Shown here piece by piece: positions 51-60,374 of a DNA stretch of 64,000 nucleotides. This DNA is from Bradyrhizobium sp. AZCC 2262 (GTDB lineage: Bacteria > Pseudomonadota > Alphaproteobacteria > Rhizobiales > Xanthobacteraceae): positions 1,798,001 through 1,862,000 of the forward strand of contig NZ_JAZHRT010000001.1 of NCBI RefSeq assembly GCF_036924535.1. The letters are read 5' to 3'. The position numbers and the translations under genes were made by a program. Each line of letters begins with the position of its first letter. Within the stretch, counting starts at the first letter, position 1. Under the pieces are notes generated by a model. The model saw only the letters and a list, made by a program, of their open reading frames with translations. It made no database searches and was not told the origin of the DNA.

Positions 51-660
51 CCTGTCACCTGCAATCGGCTCTTTCGATCTGCAGCAAGACTAGGAGAATG
101 GCGACCGCTGCCTCAATCGTACGTAGGTAAGCGGGTGGCATAGAAAGGGATCGCAGGACCATACGGAGGTTTGTTGGCAGGATCACACGATCTGCTTGCA
201 AACGAATCTCCAGTTGAAGGGGGATTGCACGATGGAGAAGAAGCAGACGGCTCACGTCTACCTGGGTGAGGGAGGGGGTGAGGCCAGCGCGAAGCCGTCC
301 GCTCAGCAGCCATGCGCGGGAGGAACGCGACCTATCAGCTTCACGCTAAACTAGGTGCAAAAAGGTGCGGAACAACTAAACGAAGGTTTGGCTCAGCCAA
401 ATTATAGGATAGTGCGATTGCCCTTTGATATGAGTGCCAAGCCGGAAAATCACCGCACACTAGCCGGCTTAACCACTGGCGATCCTGCGCCGATTAGCTC
501 AGAGTTTTGAGTGCCTTCGGCCCCCGGGAACCCCGGCGCCGACCGCGTGGAGGCGATCGAATTGCCGAACTTCTTCAAAATGATCTAATGTCATTCGGAG
601 ACCTTGGACGCTGGGATCGATGCGTAGCCAGACAGTGAATTTCTGGAAATCAGTCGCGTT
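51..660. other. Intergenic stretch with one Tod/Sty-like box
   Basis: No convincing gene. Two short minus-strand frames between 55 and 313 overlap each other and resemble no protein I know. The only structure I can support is the palindrome at 376-391, between the partial gene at the left edge and the kinase gene at 661. Confidence 0.5.
376..391. promoter_or_regulatory. Tod/Sty-like box upstream of the PAS kinase/regulator operon
   Basis: CTAAACGAAGGTTTGG; the right half-site has one mismatch to TTTAG. It ends 269 bp before the GTG of the four-PAS kinase. If functional, it suggests autoregulation of the two-component operon. This is one of the weaker matches. Confidence 0.45.
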
Positions 661-3432
661 GTGATACGGCTCGATTCACGGCGCCAGTTCATCACCTTAG
701 CGGGACGCGCGAGGAGAATGAATAAACTTGATCTCTCACAACGACGGCCAAAGCCGTCTACAAGTTCTCACTACGCAGTGGCGGCGCTATCGGTGGCCGT
801 TGCGATCGCTATTGTAGAGTTTAACACGCGTTTATTGCATGCAGAGGCGATCACATCGTCGATGCTTTGCGCTGTTATCTTCGCTGCGTGGTTCGGTGGC
901 TTCGGCCCGGCACTGTTTGCGATCGCACTCGCCCTTTTGGCCTTCCATTATTACCTGGTGCCTCCAATCAGTTCATTTACCTGGAAGAGTGGTCTGTTCG
1001 CATTGGCCGTTGCGGAGGTGCCCCGTCTACTCCTGTTTTCCATTGTATCGCTGGTCGTTGCATTTCTGATGTCGGCACAGAGAAGAGCAACAGAAATCCT
1101 CCGGCTTTCCCGCAATGATCTGCGAGCGGCGATGGAGGATCAAAGGCGGATTGAAGCCGCACTCCTGCGCAGCGAAATGTATCTGACCGAAGCGCAGAGA
1201 TTGAGCGGCACCGGTAGCTTTGGATGGAATGTCGCCAGCGGAGAGATCGTCTGGTCAGATCAGACTTTCCGAATTTTTGGATGCGACCCGAGGGTTATAC
1301 CGACCGTGGAATTCATCGTTCAGCGTACCCATCCGCAAGATCGCGCTGCCGTGCAGGGGACCGTCGATCGCGCGTCCCGCGACGGAAAGGATTTCGACCA
1401 TGAATATCGATTGCTGATGCCGGATGGGTCGGTGAAGTATATCCAAGCGGTGGCTCGCTCCGTGAGAGATACGTCCGGCAATATCGAGTTTGTGGGCGCG
1501 GTGACGGATGTTACCGTTGCAAAGGAGACGGAGCGGAAGCTGCGACGCAGCGATGCCTATTTGACCGAAACCGAGCGTTTGAGTCGTACAAGCAGTTGGG
1601 CCTGGGATGTACGACGTCGAGAGTGGGCGTATCGGTCGCCCGGAATGTACGGCCTGTTTGGATTCGATTCGGAACAGGGCGATGTGCCGCTGCAGGCGTT
1701 CCGGGATCGCATTCATCCCGAAGACAGGCTTCCGAATGTCGAGGCGGCGGCCCGGGCTATCCAGGAGAAATCTGATTTCGAAGTTGATTTTAGAATAATT
1801 CTTCCAGACGGTTCGATAAAGCACATACATTCCGTAGGGCACACTGTCCTCGGCAGTGAGGGCGACGTGGTTGAGTTAATTGGCACGCATGTGGATGTCA
1901 CCGAACAATACGCTGCAAGGGAGGCGCTGCAAAAGGCATTCGACGAAATCAAGAAGTCCGAAGATCGCTTTCGACTGGTCGTCGACACAATCCCGACGCT
2001 GGTCTGGCGCGCTGGAGCGGACGGGGTTCCCGACTTCCTCAATGAACCAGCCCTTGACTATACCGGCCTTTCCGAAGATCAGATCGAAACCGGCTGGCCT
2101 CGCGCTTTTCATCCCGACGACAAGAAGGGCATGTTGCAGAAGTGGAGTGCAATACGGGAATCCGGCGTGCGTGGCGAGCTTGAAGCTCGGCTCCGGCGCT
2201 TCGATGGTGAGTATCGCTGGTTTTTATTCCGAGCCGAACCCCTGCGCGATGAGTCGGGCAACATTGTCAAATGGTACGGGTCGTCTACCGACATCGAGGA
2301 CCGGAAGCGAGCAGAAAGAAAGTTGCGGCGAAGCGAAGCCAAACTAGTCGAAGCACAACGATTAAGCCTAACCGGCAGCTTTGGCTGGAATGTTTCAACC
2401 GGTGAACGCCATGGATCCGAGGAATTTTTCAGAATTCTCGGATACGACGATCCGCCTTCGCTCACTATGGAGATGGCGCTTCAGCGAGTTCATCCGGAAG
2501 ATCGTGGCTTCGTGGAGCAGACCATCGGCCGCGCGTCCCGTGACGGAACAGACGCCGACTACGAACACCGATTGTTGATGCCGGATGGCTCAATCAAGCA
2601 TGTCCATGTTGTTGCTCGTGCGGTCAGAGATCCAGCTGAACAGTTGGAATTCATCGGCGCCATTATGGATGTTACAGCGACCAAGCGGGCCGAGGATGAG
2701 CTGCGCAAGACGCAGACCGAACTGGCACATGTAACACGCGTGACGATGCTTGGCGAACTGACGGCCTCCATCGCCCACGAAGTGAATCAGCCGCTGGCGG
2801 CTGCGGTGGCCAACGCTGAGGCCGGCCTGCGCTGGCTCGACCGCGAAACTCCAGACATCGCCAAGGCACGCCGCTCGGTGGAATGGGTCATCAATGACAG
2901 CTGCCGGGCCAGCGACGTGATCCGACGGGTCAAAGCGCTGGCGAACAAAGCCGATATTGAAAAGGTGCCGCTCGATATCAACACTATCGTCAGGGAGGTC
3001 ATCGCACTGATGCAGCACGAGTTGATCCGCCATGGCATATCATTCCGAACGGAGTTGGCAACGGCTACGTCCTTGATTCTCGGTGATCGCATCCAGCTGC
3101 AGCAGGTAGTTATCAACCTGGTGATGAATGGCATTGAGGCAATGGAACCGGTCACGGATCGGCCACGCGAGCTGGTGATCCGATCACGTTGTGACGAAGC
3201 GCAGAGTATGATCGTAAGCGTGACGGATTGCGGCGTCGGTATTTCCCGCGATGATGCGAACCGGTTGTTCAAGGCCTTCTTCACCACCAAATCAGGCGGC
3301 ATGGGTATGGGGCTTTCAATCTGCCGTTCCATCGTGGAGGCCCACGGAGGACGTCTGTCAGCTTCCCGCAACGAGGGGCACGGTGCTACATTCCAGTTCG
3401 TCCTGCCCTTCCATCAGGAGGTCACGTTATGA
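661..3432 (+). CDS. DUF4118/multi-PAS sensor histidine kinase
   Basis: A 923-residue membrane-anchored sensor kinase. Residues ~35-140 hold about four hydrophobic helices resembling the DUF4118 (KdpD-type) segment. Four PAS domains follow (~165-290, 295-420, 430-560, 565-690). PAS1 and PAS4 share long stretches such as EYRLLMPDGS/EHRLLMPDGS, so they look like an internal duplication. The HisKA domain carries the phospho-acceptor in [12 protein letters not shown] (His706), and the ATPase domain has its N box (INLVMNGIEAM) and GMGMGLS. The stop overlaps the ATG of the FixJ-type regulator (ATGA), so the two are probably co-translated partners. The start is GTG; an ATG at 718 has a Shine-Dalgarno-like GAGGAG only one base away, too close to prefer. 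The signal sensed is not apparent; PAS domains could bind a small aromatic, haem or redox ligand. Confidence 0.88.
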   Translation: MIRLDSRRQFITLAGRARRMNKLDLSQRRPKPSTSSHYAVAALSVAVAIAIVEFNTRLLHAEAITSSMLCAVIFAAWFGGFGPALFAIALALLAFHYYLVPPISSFTWKSGLFALAVAEVPRLLLFSIVSLVVAFLMSAQRRATEILRLSRNDLRAAMEDQRRIEAALLRSEMYLTEAQRLSGTGSFGWNVASGEIVWSDQTFRIFGCDPRVIPTVEFIVQRTHPQDRAAVQGTVDRASRDGKDFDHEYRLLMPDGSVKYIQAVARSVRDTSGNIEFVGAVTDVTVAKETERKLRRSDAYLTETERLSRTSSWAWDVRRREWAYRSPGMYGLFGFDSEQGDVPLQAFRDRIHPEDRLPNVEAAARAIQEKSDFEVDFRIILPDGSIKHIHSVGHTVLGSEGDVVELIGTHVDVTEQYAAREALQKAFDEIKKSEDRFRLVVDTIPTLVWRAGADGVPDFLNEPALDYTGLSEDQIETGWPRAFHPDDKKGMLQKWSAIRESGVRGELEARLRRFDGEYRWFLFRAEPLRDESGNIVKWYGSSTDIEDRKRAERKLRRSEAKLVEAQRLSLTGSFGWNVSTGERHGSEEFFRILGYDDPPSLTMEMALQRVHPEDRGFVEQTIGRASRDGTDADYEHRLLMPDGSIKHVHVVARAVRDPAEQLEFIGAIMDVTATKRAEDELRKTQTELAHVTRVTMLGELTASIAHEVNQPLAAAVANAEAGLRWLDRETPDIAKARRSVEWVINDSCRASDVIRRVKALANKADIEKVPLDINTIVREVIALMQHELIRHGISFRTELATATSLILGDRIQLQQVVINLVMNGIEAMEPVTDRPRELVIRSRCDEAQSMIVSVTDCGVGISRDDANRLFKAFFTTKSGGMGMGLSICRSIVEAHGGRLSASRNEGHGATFQFVLPFHQEVTL

Positions 3433-4082
3433 ACGAGCGACCAGAATCATCGCATGGGCCCTCAAGCGCCAAGATTGTCTTCGTTGTCGAAGACGATGCC
3501 TCGATGTGCAGAGCGCTCAGCAACCTTTTTGAGTCGGTGGGACTACAGGTCGAGGTGTTCGGTTCCGCGTCCGAAATGCTGCAAGGCAAGCTTCCGGATG
3601 TTGCCAGCTGCCTGGTGCTGGACGTCAGGTTGCCCGGACTGAGTGGCCTGGATTTTCAAACCGAACTGGCCAAAGCGAACATTCACATTCCAATTATCTT
3701 CATGACCGGCCATGGCGACATCCCGATGAGTGTCAGGGCCATGAAGGGAGGAGCGATCGATTTCCTGACCAAACCGTTTCGCGATCAGGAGATGCTCGAC
3801 GCTGTCGTGAAGGCGATCGAACACGATCGGGAGCGGCGTGAGGCCGACAGGATCGTCACGGATGTGCGGACCCTTTTTGAGACCCTGAGTACTCGCGAGC
3901 GGGAGGTTATGGCATTGGTGTCGACCGGCCTGATGAACAAGCAAGTAGCAGCCGAACTTGGACTTGCCGAGATTACCGTGAAGATCCATCGGGGACATGT
4001 CATGAAGAAAATGGGCGCAAGGTCGCTGGCCGATCTGTTGAGACAGGCGGAACTCCTCGGAATTAGTCGCAACAAGCCCTAG
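3429..4082 (+). CDS. FixJ/NodW/StyR-type response regulator
   Basis: 217 residues: an N-terminal receiver (acidic pocket VVEDD, phospho-acceptor Asp65 in LVLDVRLPG, conserved Lys in FLTKPF) and a C-terminal LuxR-type helix-turn-helix (~150-205; LSTREREVMALV...NKQVAAELGLAEITVKIHRGHVMKKM). The length and linker are typical of the FixJ/NodW/TodT/StyR subfamily. It overlaps the kinase gene by four bases and should be its phosphorylation target. Because TodT and StyR bind 16-bp palindromes of the same geometry as the boxes scattered here, this is my first candidate for the regulator of the region. That link is inference; other FixJ-type regulators elsewhere in the genome could do the job. Confidence 0.9.
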   Translation: MNERPESSHGPSSAKIVFVVEDDASMCRALSNLFESVGLQVEVFGSASEMLQGKLPDVASCLVLDVRLPGLSGLDFQTELAKANIHIPIIFMTGHGDIPMSVRAMKGGAIDFLTKPFRDQEMLDAVVKAIEHDRERREADRIVTDVRTLFETLSTREREVMALVSTGLMNKQVAAELGLAEITVKIHRGHVMKKMGARSLADLLRQAELLGISRNKP

Positions 4083-4209
4083 CAGCAAGTTTCATTTAGC
4101 ATCCTGACCCGGAATCCATTTCCGTTTGGCGATGGTGGTATGCATAAGTACTGTACGTATGCCGTCGATTCTTGTCGGCTCAATGCTCCAAGCTATTGGG
4201 TAAACAAAC

Positions 4210-4225
4210 CTAAGTATGATTTTAG
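4210..4225. promoter_or_regulatory. Tod/Sty-like box before the receiver-only gene
   Basis: CTAAGTATGATTTTAG, one mismatch in the left half. It lies 73 bp before the TTG start at 4299. The upstream placement also supports TTG rather than the distant ATG at 4140 as the true start. Confidence 0.6.
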
Positions 4226-4298
4226 AAATCTGATCGGCAGCCCATTTTGGTTGGGGTGTGCTAAAGGACGCTTTGCTCTCGTGTCAGGAAGGTCCGTC

Positions 4299-4682
4299 TT
4301 GTCAACGCTTTCGGTGATTTCCGTCATTGACGACGATGCATCCGTCCGCGCAGGAACCGACAATCTCCTCAGCTCGCATGGATACATGGTACGTACATTT
4401 GCGTCGGCCGAGGACTTCTTGCAATCTGTCCACCCGGGCGAATCCTCGTGTGTCGTTGCGGATGTGCAGATGCCCGGCATGAGCGGTTTGGACCTGCTGA
4501 ATCAGGTGCGTGCTCGGGGTAACGACGTGCCGTTTATTTTTATTACGGCGTTCCCCGATGAGAGTGTCCGCGCCCGGGCGCTGAAGGTCGGAGCCATTTG
4601 CTTCCTGGCCAAACCCTTCACAGGCTCCGTCCTGATCGGCTGCATCGAAACCGCGCTGAATCGCGGCAGTGCAGGCAAGTGA
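4299..4682 (+). CDS. Single-domain response regulator (receiver only)
   Basis: 127 residues comprising one CheY-like receiver of FixJ type: acidic pocket VIDDDAS, phospho-acceptor in VVADVQMPGMSG, Lys in FLAKPF. It has no DNA-binding domain. I chose TTG at 4299 because AGGAAGG sits six bases upstream and the protein then begins directly at the receiver fold; an in-frame ATG at 4140 would add 53 residues unlike any receiver and would run through the palindrome at 4210. Such proteins often act as phosphate sinks or connectors between kinases, which would fit the nearby multi-PAS kinase. Its partner is not shown by the sequence. Confidence 0.8.
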   Translation: MSTLSVISVIDDDASVRAGTDNLLSSHGYMVRTFASAEDFLQSVHPGESSCVVADVQMPGMSGLDLLNQVRARGNDVPFIFITAFPDESVRARALKVGAICFLAKPFTGSVLIGCIETALNRGSAGK

Positions 4683-4988: not shown

Positions 4989-6359
4989 ATGCAATTGCTC
5001 ACGTTCGCGCGCTCGACGACGCTGCGGTGGACTTTGCTGGTGGCAGCGCTATTCACGGGCTTTGTCGTAGCGCTGCTCGGCTTTGTCTACTTGAAAACGA
5101 AATATGACCTGACGACTCGATCCGACCGTATGATCGCCTCGCAGATGAGCGCCTTTGCGGATTTGCCGCCCGAGCGCAGGCTGGACGCGATCGATGAGCA
5201 TCTGAAACAGGATCCGTGGCGCGTTCGGCTTGCGGCATTATTTGACCCGAACGGCCGCAGGATCTCGGGTAACCTGGAAAATCTGCCGCCCGATCTCAAG
5301 ACCGATAACGCCGTGCAAAGCGCTTTGGTCGACAGGAAGGACGAAAGTGGATCGGAAACACAGGCGGTCCGCCTGGTCGCGCGCAGGTTGCCGAATGGCG
5401 ACGTGCTGGCGATCGGACGAAATATCGACGAAGTCGCCGAGATCGCACACGTCGTTGGCGGGGCGTTTGCGCTCGGTGTGGTTCCCGCCGTGCTTCTTTG
5501 CCTTGCGGTCGGTGTGGTACTGAGCGCTCGTGCCCGTCAGCGTATTGTCGATGTCAACGAGCGCGTTCAGCGCATCGTTGCCGGCAATCTGCGCGGACGA
5601 CTCCCGCATCGAAACACCGACGACCCCTTCACCAGACTTGCGATAATCGTCAACGGCATGCTCGATGAGATGGAAACTCTCATCCAATCCCTTGCGGGTG
5701 TCGGCAGTGACATCGCCCATGATCTGCGGACGCCGCTTACCCGCGCGCGCCTGATACTTGAGCGCGGTCGCTCCAATGCCAGGACGCTTGAACAGCTCCA
5801 GGTGGTTGCAGACAGAACGACCGAGGCACTCGATCAGTCGTTATCCACTATTACCGCCATTTTGCGACTAACAGAAATCGAGAAAAGTCAACGATCGGCC
5901 AGCTTTGGCAAAGTAGCCCTCGCGGAACTCATCCGCGAAGTGGCTGATATGTACGAGCCAATAGCGGAGGACAAGGGGATTGCTCTTCTGACTCACTCGC
6001 CACACGAATTAAACGTGCGTGGCGACCGCGATCTGCTGATCGAGGCTGTCGCCAATCTCGTCGACAACGCCATCAAATATACTCCCGCCGGAGGGCAGGT
6101 GGAAATCGGATTACTGCACGGTAACTGCGAAAGTATCGTACGCGTGAGAGATACCGGTTCTGGCATAAACGAACACGAACGTCACGCTGTGCTCCGTCGT
6201 TTCTACCGGTCGGATAAAGTGCGACACACGTCAGGCTTGGGCCTCGGCTTGAACCTCGTGGTCGCGATTGTAAAGTTGCACGACTTCCGATTCACAATCC
6301 GTTCAGGGTCCGGGTGCGTGGTCGAGATCGGTTGTCCATCTGCACCGGCACGGGTGTGA
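4989..6359 (+). CDS. HAMP-domain sensor histidine kinase (orphan)
   Basis: 456 residues with classical transmembrane sensor layout: one membrane helix at ~13-34, a periplasmic loop of ~120 residues, a second helix at ~150-178, HAMP (~178-232), HisKA with His244 in GSDIAHDLRTPLTRARL, then the ATPase domain (VDNAIKYTPAGG N box; DTGSGI; GLGLGLNLV). The kinase core resembles the PmrB/QseC/CreC-like class. No response regulator gene adjoins it: the upstream receiver-only protein is on the same strand 306 bp away, and downstream genes run the other way. The ribosome binding site before 4989 is weak. Confidence 0.85.
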   Translation: MQLLTFARSTTLRWTLLVAALFTGFVVALLGFVYLKTKYDLTTRSDRMIASQMSAFADLPPERRLDAIDEHLKQDPWRVRLAALFDPNGRRISGNLENLPPDLKTDNAVQSALVDRKDESGSETQAVRLVARRLPNGDVLAIGRNIDEVAEIAHVVGGAFALGVVPAVLLCLAVGVVLSARARQRIVDVNERVQRIVAGNLRGRLPHRNTDDPFTRLAIIVNGMLDEMETLIQSLAGVGSDIAHDLRTPLTRARLILERGRSNARTLEQLQVVADRTTEALDQSLSTITAILRLTEIEKSQRSASFGKVALAELIREVADMYEPIAEDKGIALLTHSPHELNVRGDRDLLIEAVANLVDNAIKYTPAGGQVEIGLLHGNCESIVRVRDTGSGINEHERHAVLRRFYRSDKVRHTSGLGLGLNLVVAIVKLHDFRFTIRSGSGCVVEIGCPSAPARV

Positions 6360-7658: not shown

Positions 7659-8450
7659 TTATGCGTAGTGAAAACCGACCTGTTGTAGTTCGAGCAGCGT
7701 GCCGCCCGCGCCGGGGATTAGAACGACGCCGTCTACGAGATGATTGGTCAATTCCGCCGCAAGTGCGGCGTGAGAGAGCTTGTCGGGGTTGATGCCTGTT
7801 TTGATGAGGGCAGCTGCCTGTTCCCAAATCGCATTGTGACAGGACATGAAAACAACGCCGCGCCGCATTAGCGCAGGTATGGAAATGTCATCGCCGGAGA
7901 AGGGCCCCGCCGGATCCTCATAGTTCCCGGTATCAGCAGCCGCTTCGTTCCGCTCGATGATCAGCGTATTGGTCCTGAATTCGTCGCCGGCCAAACTCGT
8001 GAGCTGATACTTGTCCCAGATCGTCGGATCGTAGAGCGCAAGATCCGCTGTGCCATGTGTGACCGAGACAGCGAGAAAATCCGGATGCTTGAAGGACCAT
8101 ATCTGCGTGTTGAGCGCATTGCGCATCATGTTCAGCCAGGGTCCTGCAATGTCGGTATTGTCCCATGCCTGCTTGGCCGCAGGCTGGTACGAAAGCACTT
8201 CGGTCAATGCTTCGTGATCCCATTGCTCTGGATGGTCGAGGACCATTGGTACGGTCTTGAAATCGCGACGGCGGGGGGCCTGTGCTAGACGCTTCATCAA
8301 CGCGTTGAGATGCGTGGCACCGGCGGGCGTCAACGCCGACTTGGCGGCTGCTGCAGCCGGCTTGGCCACCGAGGCAAGACCAATCGCGCCGGCGGTCACG
8401 GTCAAAGCGACCGTCCTCAAGACACTCCGTCTGCCAGTGATAATCGTCAT
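7659..8450 (-). CDS. Tat-exported DsrE-like protein
   Basis: 263 residues beginning with a twin-arginine-type signal (GRRSVLRTVALTVTAGAIG...AKPAAA), so probably periplasmic. The C-terminal half has the pattern of DsrE-fold proteins: RRGVVFMSCHNAIWEQAAAL with a conserved-position cysteine, then VVLIPGAGGTLLELQQVGFHY. It precedes the broken doxDA gene on the same strand, which suggests a joint role in sulfur-compound handling. I prefer the ATG at 8450 because it puts the RR motif near the N-terminus; a TTG at 8510 with AAAGGA upstream would add 20 residues. The exact function is not known to me. Confidence 0.65.
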   Translation of the reverse strand: MTIITGRRSVLRTVALTVTAGAIGLASVAKPAAAAAKSALTPAGATHLNALMKRLAQAPRRRDFKTVPMVLDHPEQWDHEALTEVLSYQPAAKQAWDNTDIAGPWLNMMRNALNTQIWSFKHPDFLAVSVTHGTADLALYDPTIWDKYQLTSLAGDEFRTNTLIIERNEAAADTGNYEDPAGPFSGDDISIPALMRRGVVFMSCHNAIWEQAAALIKTGINPDKLSHAALAAELTNHLVDGVVLIPGAGGTLLELQQVGFHYA

Positions 8451-8585: not shown

Positions 8586-8601
8586 GTAAAGCGGAATTTA
8601 A
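8586..8601. promoter_or_regulatory. Tod/Sty-like box between divergent dsrE-like and small secreted genes
   Basis: GTAAAGCGGAATTTAA, one mismatch in the left half. It sits 111 bp before the ATG at 8713 on the plus strand and 135 bp before the ATG at 8450 on the minus strand, so it could serve either gene. Confidence 0.5.
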
Positions 8602-10107: not shown

Positions 10108-10123
10108 TTAAATTGTCGTTCAG
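10108..10123. promoter_or_regulatory. Tod/Sty-like box, first of a tandem pair
   Basis: TTAAATTGTCGTTCAG. The left half is a full match; the right half has TTCAG, a variant also seen at 16823. It lies 173 bp before the preferred AraC start and 218 bp before 10342. Confidence 0.6.
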
Positions 10124-10126
10124 AAA

Positions 10127-10142
10127 CTAAATTCGATTTTAT
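10127..10142. promoter_or_regulatory. Tod/Sty-like box, second of a tandem pair
   Basis: CTAAATTCGATTTTAT, 19 bp downstream of the first box in register, close to two helical turns. It ends 199 bp before the ATG of the dehydrogenase gene. Confidence 0.65.
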
Positions 10143-12555: not shown

Positions 12556-12571
12556 TTAACGGCGAATTTAA
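12556..12571. promoter_or_regulatory. Tod/Sty-like box upstream of the bd oxidase operon
   Basis: TTAACGGCGAATTTAA, a single mismatch in the left half-site. It ends 65 bp before the ATG of the oxidase subunit I gene, a typical activator distance. Confidence 0.55.
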
Positions 12572-12636: not shown

Positions 12637-14052
12637 ATGGACATCACGGCACTTCTTCTCTCCAGAATTCAATTCGCCTTTACCATCACGTTTCATATCA
12701 TCTTTCCATCCTTCACGATCGGGTTGGCAGCCTGGCTCACCGTCCTCGAGGCCCTGGGGCTTTCCACGGGCCGACCCGTCTATCGCGTGATCTTCGAGTT
12801 CTGGCTGAAGATATTCGGTGTGGCATTCGGCTTGGGTGTGGTGTCCGGGATCGTCATGGCATTCCAGTTCGGCACCAACTGGAGCGTGCTGTCCAAGGTG
12901 TCCGGGCCGATCCAGGGCCCGCTCCTGATGTACGAAACCTTTACCGCATTCATGCTCGAGGCCAGTTTCTTCGGCGTCCTCATCTTTGGCCGCAGCCGAG
13001 TGCCGCCATGGTTCTACCTGTTTTCGACTGCGATGGTCGCGCTGGGAACCACTTTTTCGGCGTTCTGGATCATGGTCAATAACAGCTGGATGCAGGTGCC
13101 ATCAGGCTATGTCATGGAGAATGGCAGCTTTGTTCCCAATGACTGGACCAAGATCATCTTCAATTCGGTCGTTTGGTCGCGATTCCCGCACATGTTGCTT
13201 GCCTCCTACCTTACCGGTGCCTTCTGCGTCGCCGCGACCGGGGCATGGTACGTGCTGCGAAAGGAATACCATGCTGAGTCCCGCATCATGCTGCGCATGG
13301 GCCTTGGTCTCGCCGCCGTGCTGATGCCGATCCAGCTGTTCTTCGGGCATCTAAACGGCATCTATGTCAATACTTATCAACCATCCAAGATGGCTGCGAT
13401 CGAGGGACGCTGGAATGATGAAAAACCGGGGTCTGAAGTGCTGTTCGCATGGCCGGATGTGAAGAACCGGCGCAACCTGTTCGCGATTACGCTGCCGCCA
13501 CCCTTCGGCAGCCTGATCGATTCCGATAGTCTCACTGCAGGGGAAACAGGACTCAACAGCATCCCTCCGGAGAACTGGCCGCCAGTGGTCATCCCGTTCT
13601 TCGCATTCCGGATCATGGTCGGATGTGGTCTGCTGATGCTGGGGCTCGCCTGGCTCGGCAGCTATCTGAGTTACAGGCACCGCCTAGCGTACAATCGCCC
13701 GCTGCTTTGGCTGACCTTCCTGAGCTTTCCGCTGCCCTTCGTCGCGATCATTACCGGCTGGTTCACCGCTGAAGTCGGCCGCCAGCCCTGGGTGGTTTAT
13801 GGCGTGCTGCGAACCGCGGATGCCGTGACGCCGTTCCTGACGGCGCGCGAAGCGACGATTTCACTGGCGATCTTCTGTTCGGTCTACGCCTTCATCTTTC
13901 TGTTCGGCACGTTTTACATCTATCGGCTCATCCGCATTGGTCCTGCGAGAAAGTCGTTCGAGGTTCCGCATCTCGTGGTTCCGAACCGACCGATGTCACT
14001 CGCCGAGGAAGAGCCAACCTCCGTATCCAACTCCATCGTCGCCGGAGAGTAG
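12637..14052 (+). CDS. cydA: Cytochrome bd-type (cyanide-insensitive) quinol oxidase subunit I
   Basis: 471 residues with the multi-helix fold of CydA/CioA. The N-terminal RIQFAFTITFHIIFPSFTIG carries the haem-ligand His, and GRQPWVVYGVLRTADAVTP is the hallmark of the Q-loop region. The Q loop is short, as in CioA proteins, rather than long as in E. coli CydA. The enzyme oxidises quinol and reduces oxygen to water without proton pumping, and in relatives it tolerates low oxygen, NO, cyanide or sulfide. It is the first gene of a cydA-cydB-DUF1275 unit under the box at 12556. Confidence 0.93.
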   Translation: MDITALLLSRIQFAFTITFHIIFPSFTIGLAAWLTVLEALGLSTGRPVYRVIFEFWLKIFGVAFGLGVVSGIVMAFQFGTNWSVLSKVSGPIQGPLLMYETFTAFMLEASFFGVLIFGRSRVPPWFYLFSTAMVALGTTFSAFWIMVNNSWMQVPSGYVMENGSFVPNDWTKIIFNSVVWSRFPHMLLASYLTGAFCVAATGAWYVLRKEYHAESRIMLRMGLGLAAVLMPIQLFFGHLNGIYVNTYQPSKMAAIEGRWNDEKPGSEVLFAWPDVKNRRNLFAITLPPPFGSLIDSDSLTAGETGLNSIPPENWPPVVIPFFAFRIMVGCGLLMLGLAWLGSYLSYRHRLAYNRPLLWLTFLSFPLPFVAIITGWFTAEVGRQPWVVYGVLRTADAVTPFLTAREATISLAIFCSVYAFIFLFGTFYIYRLIRIGPARKSFEVPHLVVPNRPMSLAEEEPTSVSNSIVAGE

Positions 14053-14054
14053 CC

Positions 14055-16376: not shown

Positions 16377-16765
16377 CTACGACTTGGGCATCACGCCGGG
16401 GCCGTTATCGGGCCACTTCGCAATGGCTGCCTCGTCGACATTCAGATGCTGGGCGACGAGTGATGGTGGGGTGTGCGTCAGCCAATTGGAGAGGGAAACC
16501 TCTTCATAGCGGGAAGCCTTGAAGACTCCGATAAACTGCAGGTCAGTGTCTCCGACGTTCTCGACGTAATGTCCGAGATTGCGCCTGACGTAGCCGATGT
16601 CTCGGGCATTGCAGTCCATCGTCATCGCATTGGGCCGGTATTGAACACCGTCATGCGTGCCGTGCCCTTGATATAGTACTGCCATTCGTCGGCATTCGGA
16701 GCCGCGCCTGCAACAGCGCCTGCAGCAGCCACCGCCAGCACATTCCGTCTTGAAAGCATGATCAT
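16377..16765 (-). pseudogene. Degenerate bicupin (oxalate decarboxylase-like) with internal deletion and frameshift
   Basis: The N-terminus (MLSRRNVLAVAAAGAVAG) is a Tat-like signal as in the intact bicupin at 22295-23563. It is joined directly to PNADEWQYYIKG from the middle of that protein's second cupin; roughly 290 residues, including the first cupin, are missing. The frame reads to FNTGP, then loses one base (near 16633-16637) and continues in another frame as NAMTMDCNARDIGYVRRNLGHY to the normal C-terminus. Both lesions are visible by comparison with the paralogue. GGAG lies eight bases before the second ATG (16759). It still has a Tod/Sty-like box at 16823. Confidence 0.8.
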
Positions 16766-43879: not shown

Positions 43880-44044
43880 ATGAGCGCTAACCACACCGAG
43901 CTGCGAACGAGCAGGATACACACCAGCCTGGCCGTGCCAGCATTCGGATTTCTTCTCTTCAAGCTGGACATCCTGGTTGATGCGATGGGTGGCGGAAGCT
44001 TGCCGCATCTTGCTGCAGAAGAGGGGAGAATGCTGAAAAGATGA
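43880..44044 (+). CDS. 54-residue protein coupled to kup
   Basis: Starts MSANHTELRTSRIHTS, has one hydrophobic stretch (LAVPAFGFLLFKLDILVDAMG) and ends LPHLAAEEGRMLKR. GGAAGG is a few bases before the ATG, and its TGA overlaps the kup start (ATGATG). The overlap suggests a leader gene for translational coupling or a small subunit. I know no family for it. Confidence 0.5.
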   Translation: MSANHTELRTSRIHTSLAVPAFGFLLFKLDILVDAMGGGSLPHLAAEEGRMLKR

Positions 44045-46043: not shown

Positions 46044-46407
46044 GAGGAAAATCGAGCTCCGCGAAACGGTGGAACGGGTTCCCCGTGGCCCGATGGGTGA
46101 GGGGAGTTTCGCTCTCCGAGTTCCGACATGGGTCCAATTCACTTGGGCTGGGCTAAGATTGGCGGATGTCCGATTTGACCCGGCACCCAATGAACCAACA
46201 GAGCGCGAACGTCACTTCCGAAACGTCCCAAAACCGGAAGTCAGTAAATTTCAACAAGCATCTCCAATTCGTGAGCTTAGGGCCATGCGGCTCTCGTCAC
46301 CGTCTTGCCATTATATCGCACCGATTGTGACGCGACCGCCGCTTTCGCGCCCGTTTTTGAATTGACTGGCGGTGGCAAACGTAACCTAATCAACGTACTA
46401 AAGCAGT

Positions 46408-46422
46408 CCTCCTGTCAGGAGG
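46408..46422 (+). promoter_or_regulatory. Inverted repeat covering the ribosome binding site of the giant kinase
   Basis: CCTCCTGTCAGGAGG is an exact palindrome around one T. CCTCC can pair with GGAGG over a TGTCA loop, hiding the Shine-Dalgarno AGGAGG, which lies five bases before the GTG at 46428. This could limit translation, or serve as a protein-binding site. Confidence 0.5.
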
Positions 46423-46427
46423 CTCTC

Positions 46428-49400
46428 GTGAACGATCTCTCGAGCTACGCATTCTCTCCTCTGAGAGAGGGAGACATCGCTCTCTACCGGGGCTCCGGCA
46501 ACGGCTTGGCGCCAATCCTGCTCGTTACCGCGGAAGGAAGCTCACCCGGTTGCGTCGAGCGACTCGAGCACGAATATGCACTCAAGGCCGAACTTGACGC
46601 TGAGTGGGCGGCGCGACCAGTCGCGCTGACACACTACAACGACCGTATGACGCTGGTGCTTGAAGATCCCGGCGGCGCACCACTCGATCGACTGCTTGGC
46701 CAGCCACTGGACGTATCGCATTCCTTGGCCATCGCGATTTCGCTCGCCGGGAAGCTTCGCCAAATGCATGAGCGAGGCCTTGTTCACAAGGACATCAAGC
46801 CGGCAAATATCCTGGTGAACGCGGCCAACGGCGGTGTGTGGCTGACGGGGTTCGGCATTGCCTCGCGTTTGCCGCGCGAGCGCCAAGCCCCCGGGCCGCC
46901 CGAGTCGATCGCGGGCACGCTCGCTTATATGGCGCCAGAACAGACCGGAAGAATGAACCGCTCGATCGGCGCCCGCAGCGACCTCTACGCCCTCGGCGTC
47001 ACGCTGTACCAGATGCTCACAGGTTCACTACCGTTTACCGCAGCCGATCCCATGGAGTGGGTCCACTGCCATATCGCTAGAAAGCCGATTCCGCCAAGCG
47101 AGCGGCTGGAGACGGTCCCGGCCGCGGTCTCCGCCCTCATCCTGAAGCTGCTCGCCAAGACGGCCGAGGAACGCTACCAGACCGCTGCCGGCTTGGAGCG
47201 CGACCTCCGGTGCTGCCTTGCTGCGTGGAAGGATCATCGCCGGATCGACGCCTTTCCGCTGGGCAAACACGACACGCCCGACCGGCTTTTGATTCCCGAG
47301 AAACTGTACGGGCGGGAACGCGAGATCGAGACCCTGCTCGCCGCCTTCGACCGCGTCGTCACCCGCGGCCGACGAGAGCTGGTGCTGGTCTCCGGATATT
47401 CCGGTATCGGCAAGTCCGCCGTCGTCAATGAGCTGCACAAAGCGCTGCTGCCGGCGCGCGGCCTTTTTGCCTCCGGCAAGTTCGACCAGTACAAGCGCGA
47501 CATTCCTTATGCGACGCTCGCGCAAGCTTTTCAGAGCCTGATCCGCCCGCTTCTGGGCAAGAGCGACGCTGAGCTGGCCGGCTGGCGCGACGCTCTGCGC
47601 GAGGCACTGGGCTCAAACGGGCAGCTCATGATCAGCGTTATCCCCGAGCTGAAGCTTCTCATCGGAGAACAACCGCCGGTCCCGGGGCTTCCGCCGCAGC
47701 AGGCACAAAGCCGTCTCCAGCTGGTGTTCGGGCGGTTTATCGGCGTCTTCGCTCGGCCTGAACATCCCCTGGCGCTTTTTCTCGACGATTTGCAATGGCT
47801 CGACGCGGCGACGCTCGATCTGCTCGCCGACCTGTTGACCCAGGCAGACGTGCAGCCGTTGCTGGTGATCGGGGCTTACCGGGACAATGAAGTCGATTCC
47901 GCCCATCCCCTGATGCGGAAGCTCGATGCTATCCGCAAGGCGGGAGCGTTCGTGCAGGAGATCAGTCTTGCGCCGCTCGCCCGAGCCGACTTGGGGCGGC
48001 TCATTGCGGATACGCTTAGCTGCACGCCGCGCCGTGCCGCCGCGCTGGCGCGGCTAGTGCATGAGAAGACGGCTGGCAATCCGTTCTTCACGATTCAGTT
48101 CATTTCTGCGCTCGCCGAAGAGGGGCTGCTCCGCTTCGATCATGACGCGGCGGGCTGGCGCTGGGAGCTCGGTCGCATTCACGCCAAGGGGTATACCGAC
48201 AATGTGGTGGACCTCATGGTCGGAAAGTTAACCCGCCTGCCTGTCGAAACCCAGGCGACGTTGCAGCAGCTCGCCTGCCTCGGCAACGTCGCCGAGATCA
48301 CGATGCTTTCGATCGTTCAGGGGAAATCGAACGACGAAGTCCGTTCGGATCTCCGTAGTGCCGTTCATCTCGAACTGGTCGAGCAATTGGGGGACTCATA
48401 CAAGTTCATCCACGATCGTGTCCGAGAAGCTGCCTATTCACTCATACCGGAACAGCTTCGCGCCGAGGCGCACCTTCTGATCGGAAGGTTGCTTGCGGTG
48501 CATACTCCTGCGGAAAAACGCGAAGACGCTATCTTCGAAATCGTCAATCAGCTCAACCGCGGCGCCGCCTTGATCACATCACCAGACGAACGAGAGCAGC
48601 TGGCAGAGTTCAACCTGCTCGCAGGCCAGCGCGCCAAAGCCACTACAGCTTACGCCTCGGCGCTTACCTATCTCGCCGCCGGTGCGGCCGTGTTGCCGGA
48701 CGATTCTTGGGACCGCCGGCAAGAACTCAGCTTTGCTCTGGAGCTGCACCGGGCTGAATGCGAATTTCTCACCGGCGCGCTGGCGGAAGCGGAGCAACGC
48801 CTGAATGTGCTTTCGACCCGCACCGCAAGTACGCTGGAACGAGCCAACGTTGTGTGCTTGTACGCCGACCTGTACACGACCGTCGGTCAGAACGCGCGCG
48901 CCATTACCGTCGGTCTGGACTACCTCCGGCACGTGGGCATCCACTGGTCGCCACATCCAACAGAAGAGGAAGCGCGGCGAGAATATGATCGGATATGGTC
49001 GCAACTTGGGAGTCGACCGATCGACGAGCTCGTTGATCTGCCCCTGATGACGGACCTGGCTTCGTTGGCGACTCTGGATGTTCTCGCCAAGGTGTTTGCT
49101 GCAGCTATGTACACAGAGGCCAACCTGGCCTGCCTGGTGATCTGTAGGGCCGTCAATCTCAGCATCGAGCGCGGCAACTGTGACGGATCGACCTTCGCAT
49201 ATGTCATGCTTGGCGCTATCGCCGGCGCGCGTTTTGGCGATTACAGGGGCGGTTTTCGCCTCGGCCAGCTTGGTTATGAGCTCGTCGAACAACGTCGACT
49301 GACGGGTTCCCAAGCCAGAGTCTATAATCAGTACGGAACTCACGTCCTGCCTTGGACGAGGCATTTCAAAGCCGGTCGCGATCTGCTGCGCCGGGCGTTC

Positions 49401-51932
49401 GAGGTTGCGAACAAGAACGGCGACCCGACCTTCAGCGCGTACAGTTGTCACGCTTTGAGCACGAACCTTCTTGCAGTGGGCGACCCGCTTCCCGATGTGC
49501 AGCGCCAAGCGGAGCATGGTCTCGCGTTTGCAGAGAGGACACGTTTCAGGGTGGCTATTGATCTCATCACCATCCAGCTTGGGCTGATCCGGACCCTCCG
49601 AGGACTTACGCCGAAGTTCGGCTCGTTTAACGATGCGCAGTTTGATGAGAGTCAGATCGAGCATCGTTTAGCTGATAACCCAGGTCTGGCACGTGCCGAG
49701 TTCTCCTATTGGACTCGCAAGCTGCAGGCGCGCTTTCTCGCCGGCGACTATATGTCAGCCGCGCATGCCGCATCGAGGGCTCAATCGCTGTTCTGGATAG
49801 CGAACTACACTGTGGAAGCGGCGGAGTATCAGTTGTACGCCGCGCTTTGCCACGCCGCAATCTGCGGCACCGCTGCGCCCGGCCAATGCCAGCAGCACGT
49901 CGCGGCTCTGGATGCTCATCACCGGCAACTCGAAGTCTGGGCGGTGAACTGCCCCGAAAATTTCGACAATCGCGCCGCGCTGGTCGGTGCCGAGATCGCT
50001 CGCATCGAAGGCCGCGACGTTGACGCAATGCGCCTCTACGAACAGGCCATCCGTTCGGCTCGCGCAAACGGGTTTATTCATAATGAGGCACTAGCCAATG
50101 AAGTCGCCTCCCGCTTCTACGCGGCGGGTGGCTTCGAGAAGATTGCCCGTATGTATTTGCAGGACGCCCGCCATGGCTATCTGCGTTGGGGAGCCGACGG
50201 CAAGGTGCGGCAACTCGAACAACTTCATCCGCATCTTCGCGACACAACAGACCCTGGATTTCCCGCGACTACCATTGGTGGGGCCGTCGAGCAGCTCGAC
50301 GTCGGGACCGTTGTCAAGGCTTCGCACCGGGTCTCGAGCGAGATCGAACTCGGCAAGCTTATAGAAACGCTTTTGCGAATCGCGGTCGAGCATGCTGGCG
50401 CCGAACGCGGCCTGCTCATCCTGTTCCGGGACGGCGACGAGCCACGCATCGCAGCGGAGGCGACGACCGGCCGAGGGCAAGTTGAGGTTACGCTGCGTCA
50501 GACCGCCGTATCGCCCATTGAGCTTCCCGAATCCGTGCTCCATTACATGATCCGGACTCGCGGAAGCGTAATCCTTGATGACGCCATGGTGCAGAATCTG
50601 TTCACGTCGGATGAGTACATCCGTCAGAAGCACACCCGGTCAGTCCTCTGCCTGCCCCTGGTGAAGCAGGCCAAGTTGATCGGGGCGCTTTATCTCGAGA
50701 ACAAACTGGCATCGTACGTATTCACGCCTGCGCGGATTTCGGTACTCGAACTGCTGGCGTCGCAAGCGGCGATTTCTCTGGAGAACGCCCGTCTGTACAG
50801 CGATCTCGGGGAACGGGAGGCCAGGATCCGCCGCCTCGTCGAGGCCAACATCATCGGAATCATGATCGGGGATGCTCGGGGCCGGATCATCGAGGCCAAT
50901 GATGCGTTTCTCGACTTGTTGGGCTACGGCCGCGAAGACCTTGTCTCGGGTCGGATACGGTGGACGAAGCTGACGCCTGTCGAGTGGGCCGCCGCCGACC
51001 AGGATGCAATCGGCCAGCTCAGCGAGACCGGGACCTGCAAGCCTTACGAGAAGGAATATTTCCGCAAGGATGGTAGTCGCGTGCCGGTTCTGGTCGGCGG
51101 AGCCTTTTTCGAACAGGAGCGAGACGAGGGAGTTGTCTTCGTCATCGACATGACGGAGCGCAAGCGAGCGGAGAACAAGCTGCGCGCCAGCGAACAGCGC
51201 TTGCTCGATGCCCAAATGGAGCTCGCGCACGTCAATCGCGTTTCCACGATGGGGCAGCTTGCGACCTCCATCGCCCATGAAGTAAACCAGCCGCTCGCGG
51301 CCGTCATAGCTAACGCCGAGGCCTGTCTGCGCTGGCTCGACCGCGGGAATCCCAACCTGAGCGCGGCGCGCCGCTCGGTTGAATGGATCATCGACGACGG
51401 CACTCGGGCGAGTGAGGTAATCCGGCGAGTCCGGACGCTCGCGAACAAGACCAGCAATGAGAAGGTGCCGCTCAAGGTCAATGACGTCATTGGGGAGACT
51501 ATCACGCTGGTGCAGCGTGAGCTGAGCAGCCACCGGGTGGCGCTGCGGACGGAGTTGGCACCGGCTCTACCCGCGATCCTGGGTGATCGGATCCAACTGC
51601 AGCAGGTAGTTATTAACCTGGTGATGAACGGCCTGGAGGCAATGCAGTCGGTTACAGATCGACCGCGCGAGCTGGTAATCCGATCGGACCAGGACGGAGC
51701 ACAGCTGGTGCTGGTCACCGTGACGGACTCTGGAGCGGGGATCTCTGCCGAGAACGCGGACCGGCTGTTCAACGCCTTCTTCACCACCAAATCCAGTGGC
51801 ATGGGTATGGGACTCTCGATCTGCCGTTCGATCATCGAAGCTCACGGGGGCCGGATGTCGGCCGTCAACAATGTGGGGCCGGGCGCCAAGTTTCAGTTTA
51901 CATTGCCATTGTATCAAGAGGACACGTTGTGA
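46428..51932 (+). CDS. Ser/Thr kinase-like / AAA ATPase / GAF / PAS / histidine kinase fusion
   Basis: 1834 residues. Order: protein-kinase domain (~10-270; [29 protein letters not shown]), large ATPase module (Walker A GYSGIGKS ~325, Walker [13 protein letters not shown]), a long helical TPR-like region, GAF (~1300-1450), PAS (~1465-1590), HisKA with His1617 in [12 protein letters not shown], and HATPase. In the kinase domain the DFG motif reads LTGFGIA: Gly141 replaces the metal-binding Asp, so Ser/Thr kinase activity is doubtful. I chose GTG 46428 because AGGAGG is five bases away. The last ~230 residues are close to those of the kinase at 661-3432, suggesting shared partners. No regulator gene follows. 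Confidence 0.9.
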
Positions 51933-53294: not shown

Positions 53295-53731
53295 AGCGAA
53301 GGAAGCGGCTCCCAATCTGATGCGCGGCCGTGCGCGCTTGCGTTGACGGACTGCAGGGGGAGGTACATCACCGCGCAGGGGCCCGCTCTAGGTCAAAAGC
53401 GCGTTTCGAGCGCGCGCCGATCATCTCCAAACTATCTCGGCAAGCGGACAATTTGCAGTCCGTCAGCGTGTCTCAAAGGCGCTAAGGACAGACGCGCTTA
53501 TAGGAATGCTTGCTCTGCATCCCCTTGGTTCTCGCCCTCACCAAATATCTAAAGGCTAAACTTATTTTTAGTTGAGAAGCCGTGTCAGACACATGATGTG
53601 TACGTCTGATCGCTGTTTCGTGCGGACAATCAGCAAGTTTGCTGGAAGGTGTTCGGCTATGAGCCGCCGGGAGGTTATGGGAATCTGTTCGCAATTTACG
53701 CCGCGGAATTCTCCGAACGGAGCAATGCAAA
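53295..53731. other. Intergenic stretch with one box
   Basis: 437 bp between the solute-binding protein and fdhD. It contains the box at 53556-53571; I see no other gene or hairpin. Confidence 0.5.
53556..53571. promoter_or_regulatory. Tod/Sty-like box upstream of fdhD
   Basis: CTAAACTTATTTTTAG; both half-sites match. It ends 160 bp before the fdhD ATG. Confidence 0.65.
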
Positions 53732-54538
53732 ATGGAACCGGCCCGAACCGTTCACCGCCAGAGTTGGCGGGTAGGCACTCCGAGTTCGGGCCGTCGTTCG
53801 ATTCCGGAAGAGACCGCGGTAGCGGTCACATACAACGGCGGCACCTATGCCGTAATGATGACGACGCCCCAGGATTTGGAAGATTTCGCGCTTGGCTTCA
53901 GCCTGAGCGAAGGCGTCATCGACTCTGCTGCTGATATCGACTCGTTAGACATCGTGCACCTCGATGACGGGGTCGAATTGCGGATGTGGCTCAGTCAGCC
54001 GAGAGCCGATCGCCTGAAGGAACGACGGCGGCGTATGGCAGGACCGACGGGTTGTGGATTGTGCGGCATCGAATCAATCGCGGAAGCGATGCGTCCGACC
54101 GCCACTATCCGTCATGGAGGGCAATTCTCGCCGGAACAGATCATGGCTGCCATGGAGGGCCTGCCATCGCGTCAAAGACTCAATATCGAGACGCGCGCCG
54201 TTCACGCGGCGGCCCTCTGGAACGTTACGAGCGGTATCGTTGCGTTGCGGGAGGACGTCGGCCGTCACAATGCGCTCGATAAGCTTTCTGGTGCTCTGGC
54301 TCAGGCGTCCATTGTGGCGAGCGAGGGTATCGTACTTCTCACCAGCCGGGTGTCGGTGGAGATGGTGCAGAAAACCGCCGCGATTGGAGCACCTGCGATG
54401 GTGTCGGTCTCGGCTCCGACCGCGCTGGCTGTTCGTATGGCGGATGCAGCGGGGATCACACTTGTCGCCATCGCGCGCAAGGACGGATTCGAAGTGTTCA
54501 CCCATCCATGTAGAATTTCTCGGGAGTCGTTGCGGTAG
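53732..54538 (+). CDS. fdhD: Formate dehydrogenase accessory sulfurtransferase FdhD
   Basis: 268 residues. The MAGPTGCGLCGIESIAEAM stretch holds the CxxC pair that accepts sulfur from IscS, and GIVALREDVGRHNALDKL is the FdhD nucleotide/Mo-cofactor-binding signature. It delivers sulfur to bis-MGD enzymes of the formate dehydrogenase group. The likely client in this window is the FdhF/YdeP-like enzyme 22 kb away, which also has an upstream box. GGAG lies nine bases before the ATG. Confidence 0.92.
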   Translation: MEPARTVHRQSWRVGTPSSGRRSIPEETAVAVTYNGGTYAVMMTTPQDLEDFALGFSLSEGVIDSAADIDSLDIVHLDDGVELRMWLSQPRADRLKERRRRMAGPTGCGLCGIESIAEAMRPTATIRHGGQFSPEQIMAAMEGLPSRQRLNIETRAVHAAALWNVTSGIVALREDVGRHNALDKLSGALAQASIVASEGIVLLTSRVSVEMVQKTAAIGAPAMVSVSAPTALAVRMADAAGITLVAIARKDGFEVFTHPCRISRESLR

Positions 54539-54726
54539 TGACGCGATTGTTATCAGCAATGGCATGCTGCGATATTATCTCATCCAGTGACAAGGCGATC
54601 CGCTGGCGAGCAGAGTCCGTCCAATGAGCGCGAGGGGCGATGCGATCTCGGCTCTCACTTATTGACCGGCTGCCGCATCAACAGGCGTGTCGAAGCCTTT
54701 CACTCGCACCGTGCAAGGAGCGCAAT

Positions 54727-55032
54727 ATGCGAAAACTCATCATAGCGACCCTCGTGTTCTTGCTCGCCGGGCTCTCCGCCAGTTATGCCCGCGGCGGTAT
54801 GCACGGGGGAGGAATGCGTGGAGGAGAGATGCAGGGCCTGATGGCTCCTGCGAATCCAACCGTCCCGCCCTCACTGACGCCAGATTCCCGCCTCACCGGA
54901 ACTGCGCCGCTTCCGCCGCATCATCAGCCAACATCGGCTGACGTTCCTTCGGTCCCAGACGCCATGCTCAAGCCGACCCATGAAGAGGCCGCCGTCGATC
55001 GAGCGATCGGAAACATCTGCCGCGGCTGTTGA
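54727..55032 (+). CDS. Small secreted Gly/Met/Pro-rich protein
   Basis: 101 residues: signal peptide (RKLIIATLVFLLAGLSASYA), then GGMHGGGMRGGEMQGLM and a Pro-rich middle (LTGTAPLPPHHQPT), ending in a pair of cysteines (NICRGC). AAGGAG is eight bases before ATG 54727. The Met/His/Cys content would allow metal binding, but nothing proves it. It converges with the cytochrome c gene. Confidence 0.65.
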   Translation: MRKLIIATLVFLLAGLSASYARGGMHGGGMRGGEMQGLMAPANPTVPPSLTPDSRLTGTAPLPPHHQPTSADVPSVPDAMLKPTHEEAAVDRAIGNICRGC

Positions 55033-59110: not shown

Positions 59111-59539
59111 GTTCAAATTCTCCTGACGGACGTTGCGCGCATCTCTGCCTCCGGGCCGCTTGATCCCTCTGTCCTGATCGCCGGCGTGAAGATCTGGGCC
59201 GACAATCCAATATTGACATTGCGCGGGCGCGAGTCCTCTAAATTCTGTTTTAGTTTTCGGGACGGGTTCGAACATGCCGCTCGGGAGTTCTACCGCTGCA
59301 TTTGCATGAGCTGATCTATCGGCGTCATGTTGTGGTTGAGGTTCGCCATGACGACACCGCGTCGGCAGGATGATCGCCAACATGATCGCAAGTGATATCG
59401 ATCAGGATGGCTCTTTCGGCGACCGCGATCGACCCCTGTGGGTCAAGGATACTCATCGCCGAAAAATCGAACCGATCACGCAGATCTCATTGAGGCAGAC
59501 CGCTGACGCAACCGTGTGAAGTCGCGCGGTCTCTTCGCC
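59111..59539. other. Intergenic stretch with one box
   Basis: 429 bp between DUF2231 copy 2 and the small secreted gene at 59540, both on the minus strand. Only the box at 59238 stands out. Confidence 0.5.
59238..59253. promoter_or_regulatory. Tod/Sty-like box upstream of DUF2231/sorbosone dehydrogenase copy 2
   Basis: CTAAATTCTGTTTTAG; both half-sites match. It is 127 bp before ATG 59110. Confidence 0.7.
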
Positions 59540-59873: not shown

Positions 59874-59889
59874 TTAAATTGAATTTTAG
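59874..59889. promoter_or_regulatory. Tod/Sty-like box between two divergent small secreted genes
   Basis: TTAAATTGAATTTTAG, a full match. It is 73 bp before the gene on the left and 71 bp before the one on the right, an almost symmetrical placement that suggests control of both. Confidence 0.7.
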
Positions 59890-60338: not shown

Positions 60339-60354
60339 TATAAACTCAATTTAG
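60339..60354. promoter_or_regulatory. Degenerate Tod/Sty-like box, first of a tandem pair
   Basis: TATAAACTCAATTTAG; the right half is exact, the left half matches at three of five positions. It is called mainly because it sits exactly 20 bp from the next site. Confidence 0.4.
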
Positions 60355-60358
60355 CTTC

Positions 60359-60374
60359 CTGAAGCCCAATTTAG
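60359..60374. promoter_or_regulatory. Tod/Sty-like box, second of a tandem pair
   Basis: CTGAAGCCCAATTTAG; the right half is exact, the left has one mismatch. It ends 86 bp before the ATG at 60461. Confidence 0.5.

Follow-up and report, generated by a model that had tools for sequence, protein, structure and literature searches.

Which protein reads the 16-bp palindrome that recurs between the genes of one stretch of Bradyrhizobium DNA, and what does that palindrome hold together? The stretch, which we call the window, comprises 64,000 nucleotides of Bradyrhizobium sp. AZCC 2262 (positions 1,798,001 to 1,862,000 of contig NZ_JAZHRT010000001.1). A sequence-only reading had listed 23 copies of the palindrome (the box) and assigned them to one large regulon under a FixJ/StyR-type response regulator encoded at 3429-4082. 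Here, positions of up to five digits are those of the window and seven-digit ones those of the 9.48-Mb chromosome of the same genome (G000). We arrive at a similar regulon, most likely with a different protein in charge. Going by the sequence, the repeated palindrome very probably switches a single large set of stress-response genes, carried on a transferable part of the chromosome. Taken as a whole, the evidence is best explained if it is the operator of a CopR/AgrR-like regulator of the OmpR family, encoded at 1791499-1793607 together with its kinase, which would activate dozens of stress genes; we consider this likely.

The repetition is real. Searched on both strands as YTAAAN6TTYAD, the palindrome matches the window 29 times at 19 distinct places, whereas 100 dinucleotide shuffles give a mean of 0.20 matches and a maximum of 2. 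The 23 listed copies are of uneven quality: 18 fit the pattern exactly, four (376, 4210, 8586, and 12556) carry one mismatch, and one (60339) carries two. By weight matrix, two of them are weak (7.1 for 376 and 5.6 for 60339). The latter stands 20 bp from 60359, and the counterpart pair in the related genome G019 (3719299/3719319) scores 20.0 and 15.8. One window site, 29213, is absent from that list and lies just 3' of an ORF start that has probably been called too early.

The weight matrix was built on four islands, as we read three related ones (in G019, G137, and G015) beside that of the window genome, and gene calls came from a custom caller. The resulting consensus is YTAAATTSSAATTTAR, or YTAAAT-TSSA-ATTTAR in shorthand. 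Of the 165 sites scoring at least 10 in the four islands, 154 are intergenic, which amounts to 11.0 sites per 10 kb between genes versus 0.27 within them; the matrix was trained on the same islands for which this bias is reported, its seeds having been picked by sequence only. The other 11 fall in called genes. For 4210, the answer depends on the start: taking the first start codon of ORF 4140-4682 places the site within it, and the receiver domain of that ORF begins further on.

The surroundings of the box are as regular as the box itself. In 56 sites that could be oriented to a single downstream gene, TGG follows directly, then 17 bases, and then a -10-like element, CCTA(A/T)NTTC; in the 43 non-redundant ones, the bases of TGG are present at 53-77% and those of CCTA(A/T)NTTC at 35-51% each. 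If this element is the -10, the box would be centered at about -41.5 of the inferred start site, with its inner half overlapping the -35. As far as sequence architecture goes, and with the start site placed by prediction, this is the anatomy of a class II activator site. A check outside the training set came from G052, where 20 fetched regions, covering part of the 38 strict sites (YTAAAN6TTTAR), held 34 sites, 23 of them with a single orientation; the promoter model scored 4.27 facing the gene, compared with -1.00 in reverse (P 1.3e-4) and -0.93 when shifted (P 1.1e-7), a difference that counts for less in that some G052 promoters are homologous to training promoters. The same box-promoter cassette can be recognized by eye in G025. 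Boxes also come in tandem: 18 of the 38 neighboring pairs within 150 bp are spaced 19-21 bp, 14 of them exactly 20, orthologous pairs being included in this count. A spacing of 20 bp would therefore put a second dimer two helical turns upstream, at about -61.5.

The sites are also conserved. When an island gene is boxed, so is its orthologue in 39 of 52 pairs, as against 4 of 80 for genes without a box (P 9e-18), so the box is kept before orthologues. In all four islands it precedes the divergent pair of an AraC gene and a dehydrogenase/aldo-keto reductase (tandem boxes 19 bp apart, 10108-10142), the bicupin oxalate decarboxylase 22295-23563 (23633-23648, minus strand), the rpoH-like sigma factor 31756-32748 (tandem boxes 20 bp apart, 32780-32815, minus strand), the unit of 58637 (DUF2231) and a sorbosone-dehydrogenase-like gene (59238-59253, minus strand), and the small secreted protein at 59961 (59874-59889). 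In G052 and G025, the sites are dispersed over the chromosome, and an island homologue of at least 50% identity exists for 26 of 46 box-adjacent genes in these two genomes and for 39 of 215 others in the same fetched stretches; box and gene set thus tend to move together. These sites uphold a single large regulon that keeps much of the content first proposed for it: bd oxidase, cupins, a YdeP/FdhF-like enzyme, fdhD, pqqA, multicopper oxidase, rpoH, an MFS transporter, kup, and small secreted proteins. Among the papers that the literature searches listed, no title or abstract opening dealt with this box or regulon.

The box belongs to an element rather than to the genome at large. Only 26 strict palindromes occur in the whole G000 genome, and since 21 of them lie at 1,758,058-1,883,338 within a single 145-kb element, the palindrome characterizes that element more than it does the chromosome. 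The element, which also carries a multicopper oxidase, RND pumps, and a catalase, has a GC content of 58-61%, as opposed to 60-65% in its flanks. It ends at a tRNA-Arg gene (1899759-1899835) beside a tyrosine-integrase gene with matched integrase domains, and a direct repeat of the tRNA 3' end, identical over 28 bp, lies at its far end (1,754,459), so that both marks of a tRNA-gene genomic island, the integrase by the tRNA and the distant 3'-end repeat, are present. In G005, G008, and G010, backbone found here at 1.704-1.716 Mb and the DNA found at 1.8999 Mb flank the same tRNA-Arg (inverted in G005 and G008), from which it follows that about 184 kb is extra in G000. An exact 145-kb empty site was not seen, as the DNA directly left of the element sits elsewhere in relatives. 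That DNA (G000:C1:1716043-1754459) is about 38 kb of lower-GC sequence with 0 strict sites, with genes of the pyruvate-formate-lyase/acetate-kinase type by reading and a 17-bp match to the middle of tRNA-Arg at 1716043. As it holds no strict site and the piece searched for lies elsewhere in relatives, this may be chromosomal DNA that has been relocated and not another inserted island.

Beyond the island, we followed the box through 397 genomes of the order, 15 of them from the genus itself, using YTAAAN6TTTARTGG with the reversed pattern as a control. Within the genus, the query genome has 14 matches, G137 has 5, G102 and G513 have 2 each, and the other 11 have 0. Outside the genus, there were 0-4 matches per genome, which is near the level of the control.

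Who, then, reads the box? The CopR-like regulator (G000:C1:1791499-1792176), encoded on the same island some 6 kb to the left of the window, has the receiver and Trans_reg_C winged-helix domains of its family (L028:11499-12176); its CopS-like kinase completes the pair 1791499-1793607. What singles it out is the DNA before its gene. We collected this upstream region at 30 loci from the genus survey and in 40 further fetched stretches, leaving out a partial match in G026 and a second copy in G102. A box scoring at least 12, together with its promoter, was present in 30 of 30 and 36 of 40, respectively, that is, at 66 of 70 loci and in 62 of 65 genomes, most of them site-poor. Three of the remaining four loci have variants at the same distance (11.9, 10.1, and 9.8) and one, a 74% paralogue, has no box. 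For comparison, 20 base shuffles of each of the 40 further upstreams gave means between -2.9 and 2.8 and a highest single score of 12.3. In 6 of these 40, the outer half reads CTGACA, which is described as the half-site of Pseudomonas aeruginosa CopR (PMC11195947).

The distribution of the protein points the same way. Each of the 20 site-bearing genomes tried yielded it, although several of them lack a close StyR-type homologue. The genus survey detected it in 66 of 146 genomes, including 20 of the 21 with at least 5 strict sites, while only 1 of the 80 genomes without it reaches that number (Fisher 2.7e-7). The window genome also has a second, chromosomal CopR-like regulator (G000:C1:5167843-5168511), 87% identical and with its own box; hence, the island copy duplicates a core system. 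G019 encodes three CopS-like kinases.

The regulator originally put forward, 3429-4082, also has points in its favor. It combines receiver and GerE domains, its closest solved structure is StyR (E 3e-59), and the core of its recognition helix, TVK-x-HR, is that of StyR; phosphorylated by the PAS kinase 661-3432, it would bind the palindrome and activate the regulon. TodT reportedly binds ATAAAC-N4-GTTTAT. The closest homologues of 3429-4082 (E <= 1e-102) occur in nine genomes, all nine with at least 6 strict sites, a number reached by 11 of the 137 others (P 2.6e-9; 8 of 8 and P 1.9e-8 without the query genome). Five genomes chosen for this regulator hold 28, 18, 19, 28, and 23 sites, whereas 15 chosen for lower-identity homologues, by the best entry among the 80 retained of 235 StyR-type loci, hold 0-9; three genomes apparently appear in two site surveys (G537 = G028, G541 = G138, and G544 = G049). 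Among the same 80 of 235 loci, 144.6 kb around seven close homologues contains 12 strong sites (at six of the seven loci), in contrast to 0 in 1.35 Mb around the 73 others. Strict sites moreover cluster round the StyR-type gene (11 of 11 in G137, 20 of 21 in G019, and 9 of 16 in G015). In a tree of 110 loci, restricted to the 46 distinct rows for whose genomes the number of sites is known, a site-rich clade (22 rows) splits from a site-poor one (24 rows) with full support. Exceptions in the former are five rows whose genomes have 6-9 sites and L165, whose genome has 1; those in the latter are three rows whose genomes possess a copy in the site-rich clade too, besides L119, whose genome has 9 sites. 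The position would suit as well, the main StyR site being reported near -40 (PMC2442086). Three site-rich-clade copies (L112, L113, and L118) are present in B. erythrophlei GAS478, which has 28 strict sites; B. valentinum LmjM3 and B. cenepequi CNPSo 4026 are likewise rich in sites. A rule based on His versus Tyr in the recognition helix was dropped, given that the G025 protein has Tyr yet belongs to the site-rich clade and that many His-type homologues have no sites nearby.

Against this stands the box that many site-poor genomes keep upstream of their CopR-like gene. One of them is G032, which has a strong box (21.3) and gave no StyR-type match at E <= 1e-40. G131 and G102 each have 6 strict sites, yet their best StyR-type matches reach only 1.8e-42 and 73%, respectively. 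Autoregulation is not reflected before the operon 661-4082 itself: site 376 is weak, and none of the four islands has a site scoring at least 10 there, so we rejected self-control of this operon. Co-occurrence is what one would expect of any gene riding the same island, and it is probably as island cargo that the StyR-type regulator accompanies site-rich genomes, although it may act at some or all box promoters. Its likeness to StyR and its clade's tracking of site-rich genomes stand, but as the reader of the whole set it is unlikely. We prefer the CopR-like regulator because its gene is preceded by the box even in genomes that are poor in sites or in which no StyR-type protein was detected. 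The CopR-like regulator could instead bind as a repressor blocking the promoter, as the box overlaps the -35 region, where a repressor too would act, and Pseudomonas CopR is reported to limit one promoter by competing with CusR (PMC11195947). The constant spacing to a -10-like element without a consensus -35 is, however, the expectation for class II activation, and AgrR is reported to be, apparently, a type II activator (PMC7380067), which makes repression rather improbable. We give even less credit to another island regulator, the AraC-type protein (9026) or the RpoH-like sigma factor (31756). Both genes are present in 4/4 islands with boxes upstream, but the AraC protein has no close orthologue in the site-rich genomes G052 (best 44%) and G025 (54%) and none at E <= 1e-30 in G072, G080, and G102, by which we ruled it out as the box reader, and a sigma factor reads -35/-10 elements rather than a 16-bp palindrome; RpoH might still be the holoenzyme partner at box promoters. 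That the palindrome is a chance or compositional product of a low-GC element, for which the GC difference quoted above could speak, is already refuted and has a negligible probability, because the shuffles yield only 0.2 expected matches, the adjoining 38 kb of similar GC has no strict copy, and the sites are intergenic and conserved before orthologues.

Besides the homologous promoters and orthologous pairs already mentioned, several observations weigh against the CopR-like regulator as the controller. By NCBIfam, it scores below the cut-off of its best-scoring model, TIGR01387 (215.6 versus 279.2 bits), which is why we call it CopR-like and do not file it as a CopR member; the adjoining kinase likewise falls below the CopS model TIGR01386, again the best-scoring one (177.6 versus 292.55 bits). 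The half-site here, YTAAAT, differs from the ATKACA of AgrR. G063, also without a StyR-type match, has only the weaker variant (9.8) before its CopR-like gene, and G077 has 7 strict sites with no CopR-like match at E <= 1e-90. The presence of the protein does not account for site richness, as 46 of the 66 genomes that encode it stay below 5 strict sites. In genomes with at least 10 sites, the StyR-type protein predicts as well as the CopR-like one (AUC 0.998 versus 0.995), which is as expected when both regulators ride on the island. In G015, the CopR-like gene (7543722) is about 0.7 Mb from the site cluster, inside which the StyR-type gene lies. Lastly, both surveys scored the best 20 first-look candidates per genome, so absences of either protein are likely rather than absolute.

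Comparison with known systems helps to see what is familiar and what is not. AgrR of Cupriavidus metallidurans, also of the OmpR family, binds the 16-bp inverted repeat ATKACANNNNTGTMAT and shows positive autoregulation (PMC7380067). It shares with the present system a 16-bp inverted repeat (6-4-6), a box at its own gene, extra half-sites beside the box, and, going by the predicted promoter architecture here, an apparent type II position, whereas the targets named for it include agrR, prsQ2, and copA2-copR2 (PMC7380067). In Pseudomonas, a single palindrome in the cusR promoter is said to serve CusR, CopR, and CzcR alike, while E. coli CusR favors one that separates its two divergent operons; the regulon of CusR is described as very restrictive (PMC11195947). 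A regulator-kinase pair with a palindrome at its own promoter is common to these and to our system; the restrictive regulon of CusR resembles the site-poor Bradyrhizobium genomes and differs from the dozens of boxed genes on the island (PMC11195947). In content, the nearest likeness we noted is the EvgA regulon of E. coli, which overlaps in ydeP, oxalate-linked acid tolerance, and efflux pumps, although its oxalate enzymes differ in using a CoA-transferase route (PMC3720670); the comparison covers gene content. This overlap with acid-resistance targets, ydeP and oxalate, leads us to guess at acid or metal stress as the signal (PMC3720670). Among the StyR and TodT regulators, 3429-4082 is nearest to StyR by solved structures, but it has no good box before its own operon, and the box occurs in genomes that gave no close StyR-type match.

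How might the system work? The phosphorylated CopR-like dimer would bind the box at about -41.5, in many cases joined by another dimer centered near -61.5, and would thereby make up for the missing -35 and activate the promoter. Predicted targets are dozens of genes for metal, redox, acid, and envelope stress, the regulator's own gene, the CopS-like kinase 4989-6359, and the RpoH-type sigma factor. This kinase, 62% identical to the one beside the CopR-like regulator, probably provides a second input. The ancestral role of the regulator may have been little more than self-control, since the box is scarce in most genomes that carry it; on the island, and dispersed in some relatives, the box would have spread from there to a large regulon. 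With a chance we put slightly short of even, a CopRS-like system that is ordinarily narrow and controls itself has grown into a mobile and self-contained stress regulon. This regulon would have its own master regulator, two to three CopS-like sensors, an RpoH-type sigma factor of its own, and roughly 30-40 promoters that share a single portable cassette (the operator replacing the -35, TGG, 17 bases, and the -10-like element). Genes would join or leave the regulon with that cassette, as the same cassette and gene families occur dispersed in G052 and G025.

Bradyrhizobium is a genus of plant symbionts and soil bacteria, and if the proposal is right, a system related to the narrow-regulon CusR (as characterized in PMC11195947) governs dozens of promoters on a transferable island. 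The genus would then offer a natural series, with genomes ranging from a single box or a few up to 38 strict sites (G052), in which regulon growth, mobility, and dispersal can be followed. It would also predict which uncharacterized oxidoreductases, efflux pumps, and secreted proteins work together in metal, acid, or redox stress.

The remaining sites of the window can be described from left to right. The weak box at 376-391 has no clear tie to the operon that begins at 661, in which the sensor histidine kinase (661-3432, plus strand; DUF4118, several PAS, HisKA, and HATPase domains) is the presumed partner of the StyR-type regulator (3429-4082, plus strand), itself kept in 4/4 islands. The box at 4210-4225 (one mismatch) precedes a single receiver-domain protein and then the CopS-like kinase (4989-6359, plus strand); that at 8586-8601 (one mismatch) precedes 7659-8405, a secreted protein by reading with no Pfam match. 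At 12556-12571 (plus strand, one mismatch), a box stands before the cytochrome bd oxidase genes 12637-15044; it also occurs in G137 and was not called in G019. Two minus-strand boxes follow, at 16823-16838 before a cupin-like fragment named by reading (ORF 16377-16823) and at 21844-21859 before 21379-21780, a cupin by reading without an NCBIfam match, with aldehyde-oxidase-type genes beyond. The FdhF/YdeP-family oxidoreductase has two plus-strand boxes, 29131-29146, also found in G137 and G015, and the added 29213-29228.

Further right, the minus-strand boxes at 33547-33562 and 33835-33850 stand, respectively, before a small low-complexity gene within 32924-33496 and with a minus-strand promoter-like sequence. 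Another on this strand (36637-36652) precedes a pqqA-like peptide of 26 aa (about 36569, minus strand) and then, further on, the multicopper oxidase 34543-36057, while 36772-36787 (plus strand) lies upstream of 36891 and the glucose/sorbosone-dehydrogenase-like gene 37395-38753. A full promoter-like sequence accompanies the box at 42194-42209 (plus strand) before the MFS transporter 42241-43629. The box at 43707-43722 (plus strand) is 318 bp before the kup-like gene at 44041, which looks split (44041-45676), as its K_trans match ends early and an overlapping ORF goes on in another frame. The box at 53556-53571 (plus strand), shared with G137, precedes fdhD (53732-54538), and at 60339-60374 (plus strand) the weak upstream box and the good one, 20 bp apart, precede a small secreted protein and a sulfite-oxidase-type molybdoenzyme gene.

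The island also encodes, at 46305-51932, a protein of 1875 aa with Ser/Thr-kinase, AAA, GAF, PAS, and histidine-kinase parts. Two small secreted Gly/Met-rich proteins, at 54640-55032 of the window and at G000:C1:1762154-1762438, end in (N/S)ICRGC, and the gene at 1762154 is preceded by a box, as it is in G019 and G015.

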